Virus record (IMG/VR): IMGVR_UViG_3300033182_000594
Coordinates: 1 to 46,652 of that record
Length of the DNA: 46,652 bases
Strand: one strand, 5' to 3'
From: a virus
Both the position numbers and the translations under genes were made by a program. Position 1 is the first letter of the stretch, and each line of letters begins with the position of its first letter. Shown here piece after piece: positions 41,086-45,474 of the stretch. Under the pieces are notes generated by a model. That model did no database searches, was not told the origin of the DNA, and saw only the letters and a program-made list of their open reading frames with translations.

Positions 41086-41673
41086 ATGGCAAGTGTTTTT
41101 GATCAGATTCTATTGAAAGGTGTCCGTGCTGGACAGATTCCTGCACGCAATAAAGCAGCACGTGATTGGTTCCGTGGCGTAGCATCTGATGTAAGCAGCA
41201 GTCGTGTTAGTTCTAAACGAATGTTCAAAGAAAATCGTTTGGTTGATGGTCCATCTATTGGTGGTATGTATCACTTTCAATATGATCCAAAGCATAAGGC
41301 AACACTGCCTTACTATGATCGCTTCCCATTGATCTTTATGGTTGGTGGTGCTGCTGGTGGATTTTATGGATTGAATCTACACTATCTGTCGCCTGTGCTT
41401 AGAGCAAAGCTGATGGATCAACTATACACATTGTCAACGAATCGTAAGTATGATGAGTCAACTCGTATTGCTATGTCATATAGCATTCTCAGCAAGGCGA
41501 GTCGCTTCAAATACTTTAAACCAACATTTAAGCATTACCTAAGCAAGCATGTGAGATCTAGATTCATTTATATTAGTCCTGCCGAATGGGATATTGCACT
41601 AATGCTACCAACGCAACGCTTCAGCAAAGCAAGCGCAAGTCAAGTATATACAGAATCAGAGGCAAAAATCTAA
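41086..41673 (+). CDS. Conserved phage protein of unknown function between gp4 and gp54
   Basis: 195 aa. The distinctive core is MYHFQYDPKHKATLPYYDRF, then PLIFMVGGAAGGFYGLNLHY, then LSPVLRAKLMDQLYTL. Near the end, HVRSRFIYISPAEWDIALML is followed by PTQRF. I have seen this pattern in T4-like and other large myophages, without an established function. The Lys/Arg-rich N-terminal 55 residues suggest nucleic acid or virion contacts. Position between gp4 and gp54 suggests a role in head or tail completion. RBS is a weak AGG. Confidence 0.75.
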   Translation: MASVFDQILLKGVRAGQIPARNKAARDWFRGVASDVSSSRVSSKRMFKENRLVDGPSIGGMYHFQYDPKHKATLPYYDRFPLIFMVGGAAGGFYGLNLHYLSPVLRAKLMDQLYTLSTNRKYDESTRIAMSYSILSKASRFKYFKPTFKHYLSKHVRSRFIYISPAEWDIALMLPTQRFSKASASQVYTESEAKI

Positions 41674-42701
41674 TGGCAAGTTTCAAAGATTTCGCAAAAA
41701 GTCAAGCAAAAGGTTTTGTTGATACGGCAGTCAACAATCTACTCGGCGAAGTATTTGGGCAAACTGGTCCAGCTTCTGGTTTTAATGTTCAGAATATGGT
41801 ATCATCTCTTGGCAAATCTGGATTTGCTAAGACTGATCATTTTGAAGTTTTTATTACTGGTCCTGGTGATTCTTTGGATCAAAGAGATCTAGCCATTCGT
41901 GCTGATACTGTAGATATCCCAGGAAGAAACCTTACGCTGACTGAGCATAGATTTAATAACACTGGTCCATTTAATCGTATTCCTACGATGCAAACATATT
42001 CAGATGTCACCATGACATTTATTCTAAGCGAAGATATGCGTGAGAAGGATTACTTTGAACGCTGGCAGAATAAAATTATGGACACTGGTGCTTATGAGGC
42101 ATCACAAACTTCTACCGAAATAAATCCAATAACTGGTGAAATGCAGTTAGATTCTCAGAGTGCCTTGTATAGACAGAACTATACCAACGCAAGATTTATG
42201 CATCAATACTTTGATAAGTATATCGGTCGCATTGAAATTAGGCATTACGGTGCTGGCGGCACGTTAGGTGCTATTCATACATTACAAGAAGCATACCCAG
42301 TAAGCATTGCTCCTATTGGATTAAACTGGGGCGATGAATCTATCGCAAGACTTTCTATTTCGTTTGCTTATAGAAACTACAAAGTAATTTTCAACAGAAA
42401 AAATCAACCAGGACTTGGTGCTGGATTCTTCTTTAATCTTGGCGCTGGCGGTAGTCAATTTGGCATCACGCTGCCAGGAGTTGGAAATGTAAGTTACACT
42501 AAAGAAACTGGATTTGGTGGTAATATACAACCAGTTTCAAAAACCATCTTTAAGAGTGCCAGCGCAGGACAAAATACATTGCGTGGCTTTGATGGTGGAG
42601 TTATTGGATCAAATGGTTTGCCGTTGAATGAATATGGATCATCAATTAGCGGTGATATTGAACCTGTTAACACTAACATTATAGGCGGAATTGTCGCATA
42701 A
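41673..42701 (+). CDS. gp54: Baseplate tail-tube initiator / tube protein (gp54-like)
   Basis: 342 aa from ATG 41673 (MASFKDFAKSQAKGFVDTAV; T4 gp54: 320). This start overlaps the preceding stop (TAATG) and has the SD AGAGG; a reading from 41586 would lie inside the upstream gene. The tube fold is visible: FAKTDHFEVFITGPGDSLDQ, then AIRADTVDIPGRNLTLTEHR, then YSDVTMTFILSEDMREKDYF and WGDESIARLSISFAYRNYKV. The C-terminal 100 residues are Gly/Asn-rich. A gp19-like tube protein is the alternative, but the position beside gp26-like and the tape measure gene, and the length, favour gp54. Confidence 0.8.
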   Translation: MASFKDFAKSQAKGFVDTAVNNLLGEVFGQTGPASGFNVQNMVSSLGKSGFAKTDHFEVFITGPGDSLDQRDLAIRADTVDIPGRNLTLTEHRFNNTGPFNRIPTMQTYSDVTMTFILSEDMREKDYFERWQNKIMDTGAYEASQTSTEINPITGEMQLDSQSALYRQNYTNARFMHQYFDKYIGRIEIRHYGAGGTLGAIHTLQEAYPVSIAPIGLNWGDESIARLSISFAYRNYKVIFNRKNQPGLGAGFFFNLGAGGSQFGITLPGVGNVSYTKETGFGGNIQPVSKTIFKSASAGQNTLRGFDGGVIGSNGLPLNEYGSSISGDIEPVNTNIIGGIVA

Positions 42702-42727: not shown

Positions 42728-43435
42728 ATGACTTTACCAACAATTGCAACACCTAAGTTTGCAACAGAAGTCCCATCGACAGGGGAAACAGTACACTTTA
42801 GACCATTTCTTGTAAAAGAAGAAAAGATTCTTTTGATGGCAATGGAAGGCGGCGATCCTAATGAAATGACGCAAGCCACTAAAACTATTTTGGAAAGTTG
42901 TATTGAAGAAGATATTGATGTTGGTAAGTTGGCGACGTTTGATATTGAATACCTATTCCTCAAGCTGCGTGCTAAATCAGTTGGAGAAATAATTGAACTT
43001 CGCATTGGTCACACTGGCGAAAATGTTACTTGTGATCATAAGACTGAAGTCGGTATTAATATTGATGACATTAAGGTTGATGGCATCAAGAAAGATAAAA
43101 AGATTATGATTACTGATCAAATCGGTATTGTTGTACATTATCCATCAATGGCAGATGTTGAGCATCTAGATATTGATGACAAAGAAACACCATTTAAGGT
43201 TATTGCTGCTTGTATTGATATGGTGTTTGATGGTGATAATGTTTATGATGACTTCACGCCACAAGAAATGCAAAAATGGCTGGAAGGATTAAATCAGAAA
43301 CAGTTTAAAAAGGTGTCAGATTTTTTTGCGGAAATGCCGAAGTTGACACATAAGGTTGAATGGACTTGCGAGAAGTGTAAGAAAAAGGATTCATTTATAA
43401 TTGAAGGATTGTCAAGTTTTTTTACATTGCTCTGA
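42728..43435 (+). CDS. gp26: Baseplate hub / tail assembly chaperone (gp26-like)
   Basis: 235 aa (T4 gp26: 208). The N-terminus TLPTIATPKFATEVPSTGET, then VHFRPFLVKEEKILLMAME and FDIEYLFLKLRAKSVGE, is the conserved T4_baseplate/gp26 pattern. Cys102-Asp-His104 and Cys214-x2-Cys217 could form a zinc site. The gene lies just before the tape measure gene, the place of the G/GT chaperones in other long-tailed phages, which wrap the tape measure protein before tube growth. A T7 run at codons 231-232 allows a -1 shift into an open frame that adds 59 residues. A strong RBS (GAGGAG) is present. Confidence 0.87.
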   Translation: MTLPTIATPKFATEVPSTGETVHFRPFLVKEEKILLMAMEGGDPNEMTQATKTILESCIEEDIDVGKLATFDIEYLFLKLRAKSVGEIIELRIGHTGENVTCDHKTEVGINIDDIKVDGIKKDKKIMITDQIGIVVHYPSMADVEHLDIDDKETPFKVIAACIDMVFDGDNVYDDFTPQEMQKWLEGLNQKQFKKVSDFFAEMPKLTHKVEWTCEKCKKKDSFIIEGLSSFFTLL

Positions 43436-43464
43436 TACATGACTCGTTGGCGAATATGTATCAG
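43417..43464 (+). promoter_or_regulatory. Programmed -1 ribosomal frameshift signal
   Basis: The slippery heptamer T TTT TTT is at 43417-43423, in the right phase of the gp26-like frame (AGT TTT TTT). An 8-nt spacer (43424-43431) follows, then a perfect 9-bp stem: CTGATACAT (43432-43440) with ATGTATCAG (43456-43464), loop 15 nt. GCGAA in the loop (43450-43454) can pair with TTCGC at 43471-43475, so an H-type pseudoknot is possible. The 0-frame stop (43433-43435) lies in the stem. All elements of a classical -1 signal are present. Confidence 0.78.
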
Positions 43465-43602
43465 TTGAATTTCGCACTAATGCAACATCATAAATATAGT
43501 TTGACAGAACTTGAAAATATGATTCCATTTGAAAGAGAAATTTATGTTACATTATTAAAACATCACTTGGATGAACAAGAAGAACAAATGAGAAAGAAAT
43601 AA
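43423..43602 (+). CDS. Frameshift extension of gp26-like protein (gpGT-type C-terminal domain)
   Basis: After a -1 slip, reading continues TAC ATT GCT CTG ATA CAT ... to TAA at 43600-43602, adding 59 residues (YIALIHDSLANMYQLNFALM, then QHHKYSLTELENMIPFEREI, then YVTLLKHHLDEQEEQMRKK) for a 291-residue fusion. The FALMQHHKYSLTELENMIP(F/W)ER pattern is one I associate with the C-terminal part of gp26-type proteins in other marine T4-like phages. An internal ATG at 43456 could start a separate 48-aa product, but it has no SD and lies in the hairpin arm, so fusion is preferred. The stop overlaps the tape measure ATG (TAATG). Confidence 0.75.
   Translation, partial: YIALIHDSLANMYQLNFALMQHHKYSLTELENMIPFEREIYVTLLKHHLDEQEEQMRKK
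43489..43496 (+). promoter_or_regulatory. Possible late promoter before tape measure gene
   Basis: CATAAATA on the plus strand, inside the frameshift-frame coding region (codons CAT AAA TAT). It would give a leader of about 100 nt for the tape measure gene. Weakly supported. Confidence 0.3.
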
Positions 43603-45449
43603 TGGCTGAAATAGATACACTGCCGATTGTTAATGCAATCCAAAATCTAAAAGAGTCTAACTCTGAGAATCGTCAGCGTTTGCAAAAAAGTTTGCGAGCG
43701 GGATTGCTTAATGTCGTTAAAAGTGTTGACCGAATCAATTCTAGCATTATTTCTACTATGTCAGCTAGAAAAGATCCGTTTGAACAAGGGCAGGATTTTG
43801 CTCAACAAATGGAACGAAGCAATACGACTACTCTCGCTGAATTTGCACAGATTGCTCAGGCATTTTTGCAGTTTGGTACTAGAGAAAACACAGCGTTACA
43901 AGCAAAACTTAGTGGTCAAGTAGAAGAACAAACAGAAGTTATGGCAATTGCCCAACAAGGGCAAACGCAACTGTTTGCTACTATGGGTAAAATGCTTGGA
44001 CAGATGAATGCAAAGTTGGCGGACATCGCTGCTCATGGTTTAAGGCAAGTACAATTCCTCAAACTACAACTACAAGAAAGAATGAACCCAGCTTTGGTTA
44101 CGGATCAAATTCGTTCCGAACTTGCTAGAGATATGGGTATTTCTATTGAGAAAACATTAAGCAGACAAAAAGCAAGAGAAGGTTATAGTGAACAATTAAT
44201 TATGGAGTTGGAAGCTGTTGTGAGAAGAGTAAATCAAGCTCTTGGTTTGCAAACAGCAGCAACTTTAAAGATGGAAGATGGCTACGAAGATGCAGCTGAA
44301 GATATTTCAACAACTGTTTCAACAAATACACAAGAAACCGCAAAGAACACTAAAGCAATCAACAACAACACTAAAAGTGAAGCCAGACAAGAAAGTTGGT
44401 TAGTCAAACTTCATAAGATTATTAAGAAAGATCTTATTGATAATCTAAAAGATATGACTAAGAATTTCAAAAGCGGAATGTTCGGCGGCGCATTGGCTGG
44501 TGCTGGCATTGGTGGCGCACTATTTGGTCCAATGGGAGTAGCAGGTGGTGCGCTAATCGGCAGTGGCGTTGGCGGACTATTCTCTATGATTGCTAGTCGT
44601 GCTGCTATGGCTGTTCTATTGAATCCATATGTCTTAGCGGCAGCAACTGCAGCAACTGCTGGTTACTTTGGACTTGAAGAATTTAAAAAGCAACAAGAAC
44701 AGCGCATGCAAGATTTCCCAGAAGAAACTTCATGGCAAGCTGGTACTAATGTTGCTGGTGATTGGACTGCAGAATCATTAGGTTGGTTGCTTGGTAAGCC
44801 AAACGATTATTTGAATGAACTTCTATTTGGTCAAAAAACAAATACTGAAGCAGCAATTGAAAATGCAACAAGAGCTGCATTTGAAAAAGTTGCTGAAAAT
44901 ATTGGCGATCTACAAAAATGGATTGAAGAGCAACCAAACCCATTTACTGAATCACGTGATGGTATTGACCGTGGTTGGTTGGGCAACTATTGGGATAATC
45001 TTAAAAGAGATTTAGAATCCATTAGCCAATCAATCCAACAGTGGATTCTTGACGAACTTGATGCAACTAGAAACGGTCTTAAACAATTGTGGAATGAAAG
45101 TTGGGGACCTGGTCTTACAGGTTTGTATTTCCGTGTACCAAAAAAACCTAAAGTCCCTGCAGAACCACCTGAGCCAGGATCAGATGTTCCGACACTTCCT
45201 CCTATAACCCCGCCAGCTCAAAAAAACCCTGCGCCTGTTATTGATAAGCAGTCAAAGATAATGCTTCAAAACTTTGCTAGAGGCAACTATTCACCAGCTG
45301 CAGCTGCAACGCCGCCATCGATGATTAATAATATGTTTGATAACAGAGTGAATCGCAGTTACTATGCTGAGATTGATGCTGGTAAGTATAGTCCAACTAC
45401 ACAACCTGATCCATTCTCAAACTTCTACGGAACATACGGTTTTAAATAA
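43602..45449 (+). CDS. gp29: Tail tape measure protein (gp29-like)
   Basis: 615 aa (T4 gp29: 590). Residues about 1-290 are almost wholly helical with many Gln (GTRENTALQAKLSGQVEEQT), as expected for an extended rod. About 290-355 is a Gly/Ala-rich hydrophobic stretch (GALAGAGIGGALFGPMGVAG, AVLLNPYVLAAATAATAGYF) that could insert into the host membrane on ejection. The C-terminal part (PKVPAEPPEPGSDVPTLPPI) is Pro-rich. It follows the chaperone gene and ends the plus-strand cluster. No detailed identity to T4 gp29 is claimed; the call rests on composition, size and gene order. Confidence 0.8.
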   Translation: MAEIDTLPIVNAIQNLKESNSENRQRLQKSLRAGLLNVVKSVDRINSSIISTMSARKDPFEQGQDFAQQMERSNTTTLAEFAQIAQAFLQFGTRENTALQAKLSGQVEEQTEVMAIAQQGQTQLFATMGKMLGQMNAKLADIAAHGLRQVQFLKLQLQERMNPALVTDQIRSELARDMGISIEKTLSRQKAREGYSEQLIMELEAVVRRVNQALGLQTAATLKMEDGYEDAAEDISTTVSTNTQETAKNTKAINNNTKSEARQESWLVKLHKIIKKDLIDNLKDMTKNFKSGMFGGALAGAGIGGALFGPMGVAGGALIGSGVGGLFSMIASRAAMAVLLNPYVLAAATAATAGYFGLEEFKKQQEQRMQDFPEETSWQAGTNVAGDWTAESLGWLLGKPNDYLNELLFGQKTNTEAAIENATRAAFEKVAENIGDLQKWIEEQPNPFTESRDGIDRGWLGNYWDNLKRDLESISQSIQQWILDELDATRNGLKQLWNESWGPGLTGLYFRVPKKPKVPAEPPEPGSDVPTLPPITPPAQKNPAPVIDKQSKIMLQNFARGNYSPAAAATPPSMINNMFDNRVNRSYYAEIDAGKYSPTTQPDPFSNFYGTYGFK

Positions 45450-45454
45450 AAAAA

Positions 45455-45474
45455 GGGGGAGCCGAAGCTCCCCC
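45455..45474 (-). terminator. Rho-independent terminator for gp32
   Basis: GGGGGAGC (45455-45462) pairs over 8 bp with GCTCCCCC (45467-45474). On the minus strand the loop is UUCG closed by C-G, an extra-stable tetraloop, and the stem is followed by U7. On the plus strand the stem is followed by A5, so it is not an intrinsic terminator for the tape measure gene, though the hairpin could stabilise that mRNA. Confidence 0.88.

Follow-up and report, generated by a model that had tools for sequence, protein, structure and literature searches.

The locus examined here raises the question of whether a T4-like phage makes a short and a long tail assembly chaperone from one gene, by a programmed -1 frameshift, or from two separate genes. 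The window, the whole 46,652 nucleotide stretch of the IMG/VR virus record IMGVR_UViG_3300033182_000594, contains a gp26-like gene with a run of Ts near its 3' end, for which a first-pass annotation had proposed a frameshift of the kind known from lambda G and GT. The features concerned are as follows.

42728..43435, plus strand: gp26-like gene, short form (TAC-N), zero frame, 235 aa
43403..43408, plus strand: SD-like sequence GAAGGA, lying before the slip site, a candidate dnaX-like stimulator
43417..43423, plus strand: slippery heptamer T TTT TTT, in phase, conserved as T TTT TT[T/C/G] in relatives
43423..43602, plus strand: extension in the -1 frame, 59 aa followed by TAA, a gp51-like domain at the C-terminal end of the long form
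43424..43431, plus strand: spacer of 8 nt, read directly
43432..43464, plus strand: stem-loop with a 9-bp stem, candidate stimulator, with the zero-frame stop TGA (43433-43435) inside it
43450..43475, plus strand: possible pseudoknot helix, GCGAA (43450-43454) with TTCGC (43471-43475)
43602..45449, plus strand: probable tape measure protein gene, 615 aa, named from its position and a weak phrog_4070 match (E 9.5e-4)

The 3' end of the gp26-like ORF reads TCA AGT TTT TTT ACA TTG CTC TGA, with position 43417 as the third position of its codon, TTT TTT at 43418-43423, and exactly seven Ts in the run. The stem is formed by CTGATACAT (43432-43440) and ATGTATCAG (43456-43464), with 9 of 9 positions paired. 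No stop interrupts the -1 frame between 43423 and 43599, and its TAA (43600-43602) overlaps the ATG at 43602 as TAATG; joining 42728-43423 to this extension gives the long form (TAC-NC) of 291 aa, with SFFYIALIHD as the predicted residues across the junction. The coordinates given in the first-pass annotation for the heptamer, spacer, stem, -1 frame and TAATG are all correct base for base. In-phase TTTTTTY occurs only twice in the approximately 14,840 codons of the main ORFs of the window, both times in the gp26-like gene, and by chance around 0.0013 would be expected in the final 10 codons of any one gene; a heptamer with an open -1 frame in this gene is not a product of chance. The second in-phase T TTT TTT, at Asp-Phe-Phe (43321-43327), was rejected as a functional slip site, since the -1 frame there stops after 8 codons and this copy is therefore probably not productive. 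TTTTTTY is also present at the equivalent site in several relatives.

The short form was assigned to PF12322 (E 1.7e-63; 214.7 bits against a family cut-off of 24.5) and matches phrog_150, annotated as 'baseplate hub', with an E value of 2.7e-68. The gp26-like protein was matched in 694 phage records, and the nearest such protein found is 65% identical to that of the window. Its AlphaFold model is confident (pLDDT 86) and matches gp26-like proteins among viral predicted structures, while the search of solved structures placed the HK97 tail assembly chaperone gp13 (2OB9) sixth, as a weak match (E 1.1, prob 0.44, TM 0.43 by target). The NCBIfam search returned no useful match, and the PDB sequence search returned nothing beyond two weak hits, both to coiled-coil proteins (sc-apCC-6), which were judged to be due to chance. 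The -1 extension aligns with phrog_634 (gp51, 'baseplate hub assembly catalyst'; E 2.4e-25) over the C-terminal part of that family, and also with the end of phrog_150, beyond position 237. Downstream of the -1 frame, relatives with enough flanking sequence carry a long, fast-diverging ORF at the position of the probable tape measure gene. Elsewhere in the window, the listed coordinates of the gp2-like ORF (41086-41673) and of the tail tube ORF (41586-42701) give an overlap of 88 nt, and the real start of the latter is probably further downstream. By eye, a hairpin at 45455-45474, GGGGGAGC-CGAA-GCTCCCCC between A runs, looks like a terminator for the minus-strand gp32-like gene.

Conservation of the slip site was assessed in 80 IMG/VR loci and the annotated regions of approximately 25 phage records. 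The first-pass annotation had called for an alignment of gp26-like relatives, and this alignment bears out its reading: an in-phase T TTT TT(T/C/G) is found at the same place in 98 of 100 single-copy loci, some of them near-duplicates (94 of 94 loci and four more records), and in all 98 the -1 frame is open into the same gp51 domain. The forms observed were T TTT TTT, T TTT TTC and, once, T TTT TTG, and the taxa include Kyanoviridae, several Straboviridae (nt-1, phi-ST2, 1.081.O and ZPAH1), Pootjesviridae and others. The single T TTT TTG is the slip site of Rhizobium phage RL38J1 (L090, NC_070888.1), in which the gp51 part lies inside the terminal repeat and is present at both ends of NC_070888.1. 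Homopolymers are prone to error, and the T run could in principle be a sequencing or assembly mistake in a gene that is truly one continuous frame, but the same frame relation recurs in these 98 loci, from independent isolates as well as metagenomes; the survey refutes this explanation, which we consider scarcely conceivable.

Codon choice at the site is similarly constrained. A wobble T followed by TTT as the first Phe codon is found in 71 of 71 nonredundant loci, where codon usage would predict 0.47, and in only 14 of the 67 other Phe-Phe pairs of the same genes. The residue preceding Phe-Phe varies (Ser, Asp, Asn, Ala or Gly), yet its codon ends in T every time. These loci are related by descent, and for that reason no combined probability is given for the conservation of the heptamer. 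In most loci a stop closes the +1 frame after a few codons, and this frame contains no domain; a +1 shift was rejected on these grounds. It is also highly improbable that the -1 frame is reached by slippage of RNA polymerase on the T run instead of by the ribosome: the run is a homopolymer and extends to 8-9 Ts in some relatives, but in 30 of the 71 nonredundant loci the slip site is TTTTTTC, leaving about six Ts, which is short for transcriptional slippage, and the signal bears the marks of ribosomal frameshifting in its frame-specific phasing, its SD-like element and its downstream stem.

The deposited genomes themselves raise the question of whether the -1 domain is produced in fusion or as a separate short gp51, initiated at a start codon of its own or through stop-start coupling, the T run then being incidental, since in the records examined gp51, where it is annotated at all, is a separate gene from gp26. 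The annotated gp51 starts, however, disagree between records. The first ATG of the extension lies anywhere from codon 3 to codon 56, depending on the locus, and is not preceded by an SD (mean of -0.5 kcal/mol, against -6.8 before gp26, in relatives); no conserved start codon or ribosome-binding site for a separate gp51 was found across relatives. Conserved residues begin directly after the slip site and in many loci lie upstream of any ATG. Differences in the -1 domain between related loci fall mostly at the third codon position (3328, with 970 at the first and 322 at the second), a bias across relatives which points to purifying selection on this frame. Together with a heptamer conserved beyond what codon usage explains, and with the domain being fused in a single frame in T4 and Campylobacter, these observations make a separately initiated gp51 very improbable, and argue for a -1 domain made as a fusion.

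Only two of the 100 single-copy loci lack the heptamer, those of the Vibrio phages K393 and D533, which are of one type (L092 3170-3400 and L100 1670-1900) and have CTT TTC AAG TAA TGG in its place. Both possess a gp26-like gene with an open -1 frame, which was aligned to the gp51 domain by eye and falls below the threshold for phrog_634, and one PF12322 gene (checked in K393). Both also have TAATG at the gp26 stop, in the -1 frame, an overlap that would permit reinitiation and, with the heptamer absent, speaks for a gp51 translated separately. It may be that the T4 superfamily uses a bipartite dnaX-like signal (an upstream SD-like element with a downstream stem or pseudoknot), with a third mode in these Vibrio phages involving one gene that keeps the -1 domain, no heptamer and either the TAATG stop-start overlap or single-tRNA slippage, but this is a tentative proposal with somewhat less than even chances.

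The upstream half of such a signal is visible in the relatives of the window. In 56 of 71 nonredundant loci, a distance of 9-11 nt separates the heptamer from the end of the first SD-like tetramer before it, and pairing with the anti-SD averages -7.2 kcal/mol across the 71 loci, against -5.3 kcal/mol in synonymous shuffles (p 5e-10); the window itself shows a small excess (-5.5 against -5.0). Within the SD-like element, Glu is encoded by GAG in 33 of 47 cases (23% elsewhere) and Gly by GGA or GGG in 36 of 47 (37% elsewhere). Downstream, a stretch of 54 nt shows greater folding stability than synonymous shuffles (p 2e-10) or other parts of the same genes (p 6e-5). The p-values for both the SD and the folding take no account of the relatedness between loci, and the codon usage behind the shuffles was pooled. 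The stem in the window is modestly better than dinucleotide shuffles (z -1.24) and better than 98% of synonymous-codon shuffles. Across 25 close relatives, 83% of its cells are paired and two-sided changes occur at 3 of the 9 pairs; with the pseudoknot helix included, 86% of cells are paired, against 26-47% for slid versions, and there are 16 two-sided changes against 8.1 in shuffles, arising from columns 19/45, 16/48 and 36/57 and from one sequence at 18/46. The pseudoknot helix taken separately has 92% of its cells paired and two-sided changes at one pair, support that is weak because both of its sides encode conserved residues. Of the pairings proposed in the first-pass annotation, the 9-bp stem is thus conserved in close relatives, whilst the pseudoknot may be regarded as a possible addition to it. 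A single universal RNA structure was rejected, as the stem of the window holds only in its own clade and other lineages have stems at other positions, and the Rfam search gave no match. The upstream SD-like element and the downstream stem are therefore best described as candidate stimulators of the slip.

The number of PF12322 genes was also compared with the presence of the heptamer. One PF12322 gene was found in each of 16 records with the heptamer; with the protein of the window as the query, no gp26-like gene besides itself was detected in the window record, which at 46.7 kb is probably a fragment. Two PF12322 genes are present in T4, Aeromonas phage 25, Stenotrophomonas phage IME13, Campylobacter phage CPt10 and Vibrio phage SRILMA, and the heptamer is absent from the end of gene 26 in T4, Aeromonas 25 and IME13. 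In T4 this end reads GAG TTC TTT, with Phe-Phe kept at the site. Both T4 proteins score against PF12322 (215.6 bits for gp26 and 177.5 for gp51), but gp51 covers positions 13-280 of the 282 of phrog_150, extension included, whereas gp26 reaches only to 235 and its 3' limit coincides with the end of the short form. When the fused products are taken as a profile, their alignment with T4 gp51 runs across the junction. By homology, T4 gp51 thus corresponds to the long form and T4 gp26 to the short form, and the link to T4 hub assembly drawn in the first-pass annotation holds. In Vibrio phage SRILMA (L105 302-1644) a short and a long chaperone gene lie in tandem on the same strand, unlike in T4, where genes 26 and 51 are on opposite strands.

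The heptamer, the gp51 domain, the copy-number pattern and the match of T4 gp51 to the whole fusion lead us to interpret this locus, with high confidence, as encoding in a T4-like phage a pair of tail assembly chaperones of the lambda G/GT type, made by -1 frameshifting. The frameshift first proposed for the gp26 locus is upheld by the phased heptamer in 98 of 100 loci, the homology of the -1 domain to gp51, the purifying selection on it, the lack of a conserved start for a separate gp51 and the candidate stimulatory elements, and it agrees with all the computational tests applied. Most ribosomes would stop at TGA (43433-43435) and release the 235-residue gp26-like short form. We infer that a minority, the efficiency being likewise inferred, move back by a single base at T TTT TTT, where both Phe tRNAs could re-pair perfectly, and that the upstream SD-like sequence and downstream stem-loop aid this; the slipped ribosomes would then produce the 291-residue long form with its gp51-like domain. 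By analogy with lambda, both forms may coat the tape measure protein encoded by the next gene, and the long form may recruit tail tube subunits. T4 and a small number of other lineages have a paralogous gene for each form (26 and 51). The frameshift signal, by which one gene would yield short and long tail-assembly helper proteins, is real and widely conserved among the relatives of phage T4. On this reading, the annotation of gp51 as a separate gene would be an error in hundreds of records from cyanophages and related phages. The occurrence of one frameshifting gene or two paralogous genes within one superfamily could also serve to test whether recoding gave way to duplication or duplication to recoding.

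Among known systems, E. coli dnaX has an SD-like element approximately 10 nt before its slip site, a downstream stem and the heptamer A AAA AAG. The window shares the upstream element and the downstream stem, but has T TTT TTT instead of A AAA AAG, in an unrelated gene. Lambda slips at G GGA AAG, a different heptamer from that of the window, and the two are likened by arrangement, a -1 shift (predicted in the window) at the end of the chaperone gene, before a tape measure gene (a probable one in the window). The lambda G and GT proteins arise by -1 frameshifting at the end of the chaperone gene, ahead of the tape measure gene, and a 2016 review described G-T frameshifting as widely conserved, with T4 excepted (PMC5009743). 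Both products of the window have PF12322 homologues in T4 genes 26 and 51, but those are separate genes on opposite strands, with no slippery run. Vladimirov, Gautam and Davidson (Virology 566:9-15, 2022) reportedly found frameshifting to be conserved in several T4-like groups, with genes 26 and 51 in T4. According to one passage citing Vladimirov et al. (2022), some T4-like phages have one short and one long gene and no frameshifting (PMC10885494), and poly-T is named as a known -1 signal in TAC-N genes of T4-like phages in another passage citing the same work (PMC12846349). Because of this earlier work on T4-like phages, the finding in the window is the correct detection, in a new and uncultivated phage, of an arrangement already published; to what the papers citing the 2022 work state, the present analysis adds the SD-like element, the stem with some compensatory changes and the exceptions. 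The window and the T4-like gp26/gp51 chaperones (TAC-N/TAC-NC) described previously belong to the same family, with short and long forms sharing their N-terminal part, and the window differs from them in being the record of an uncultivated virus.
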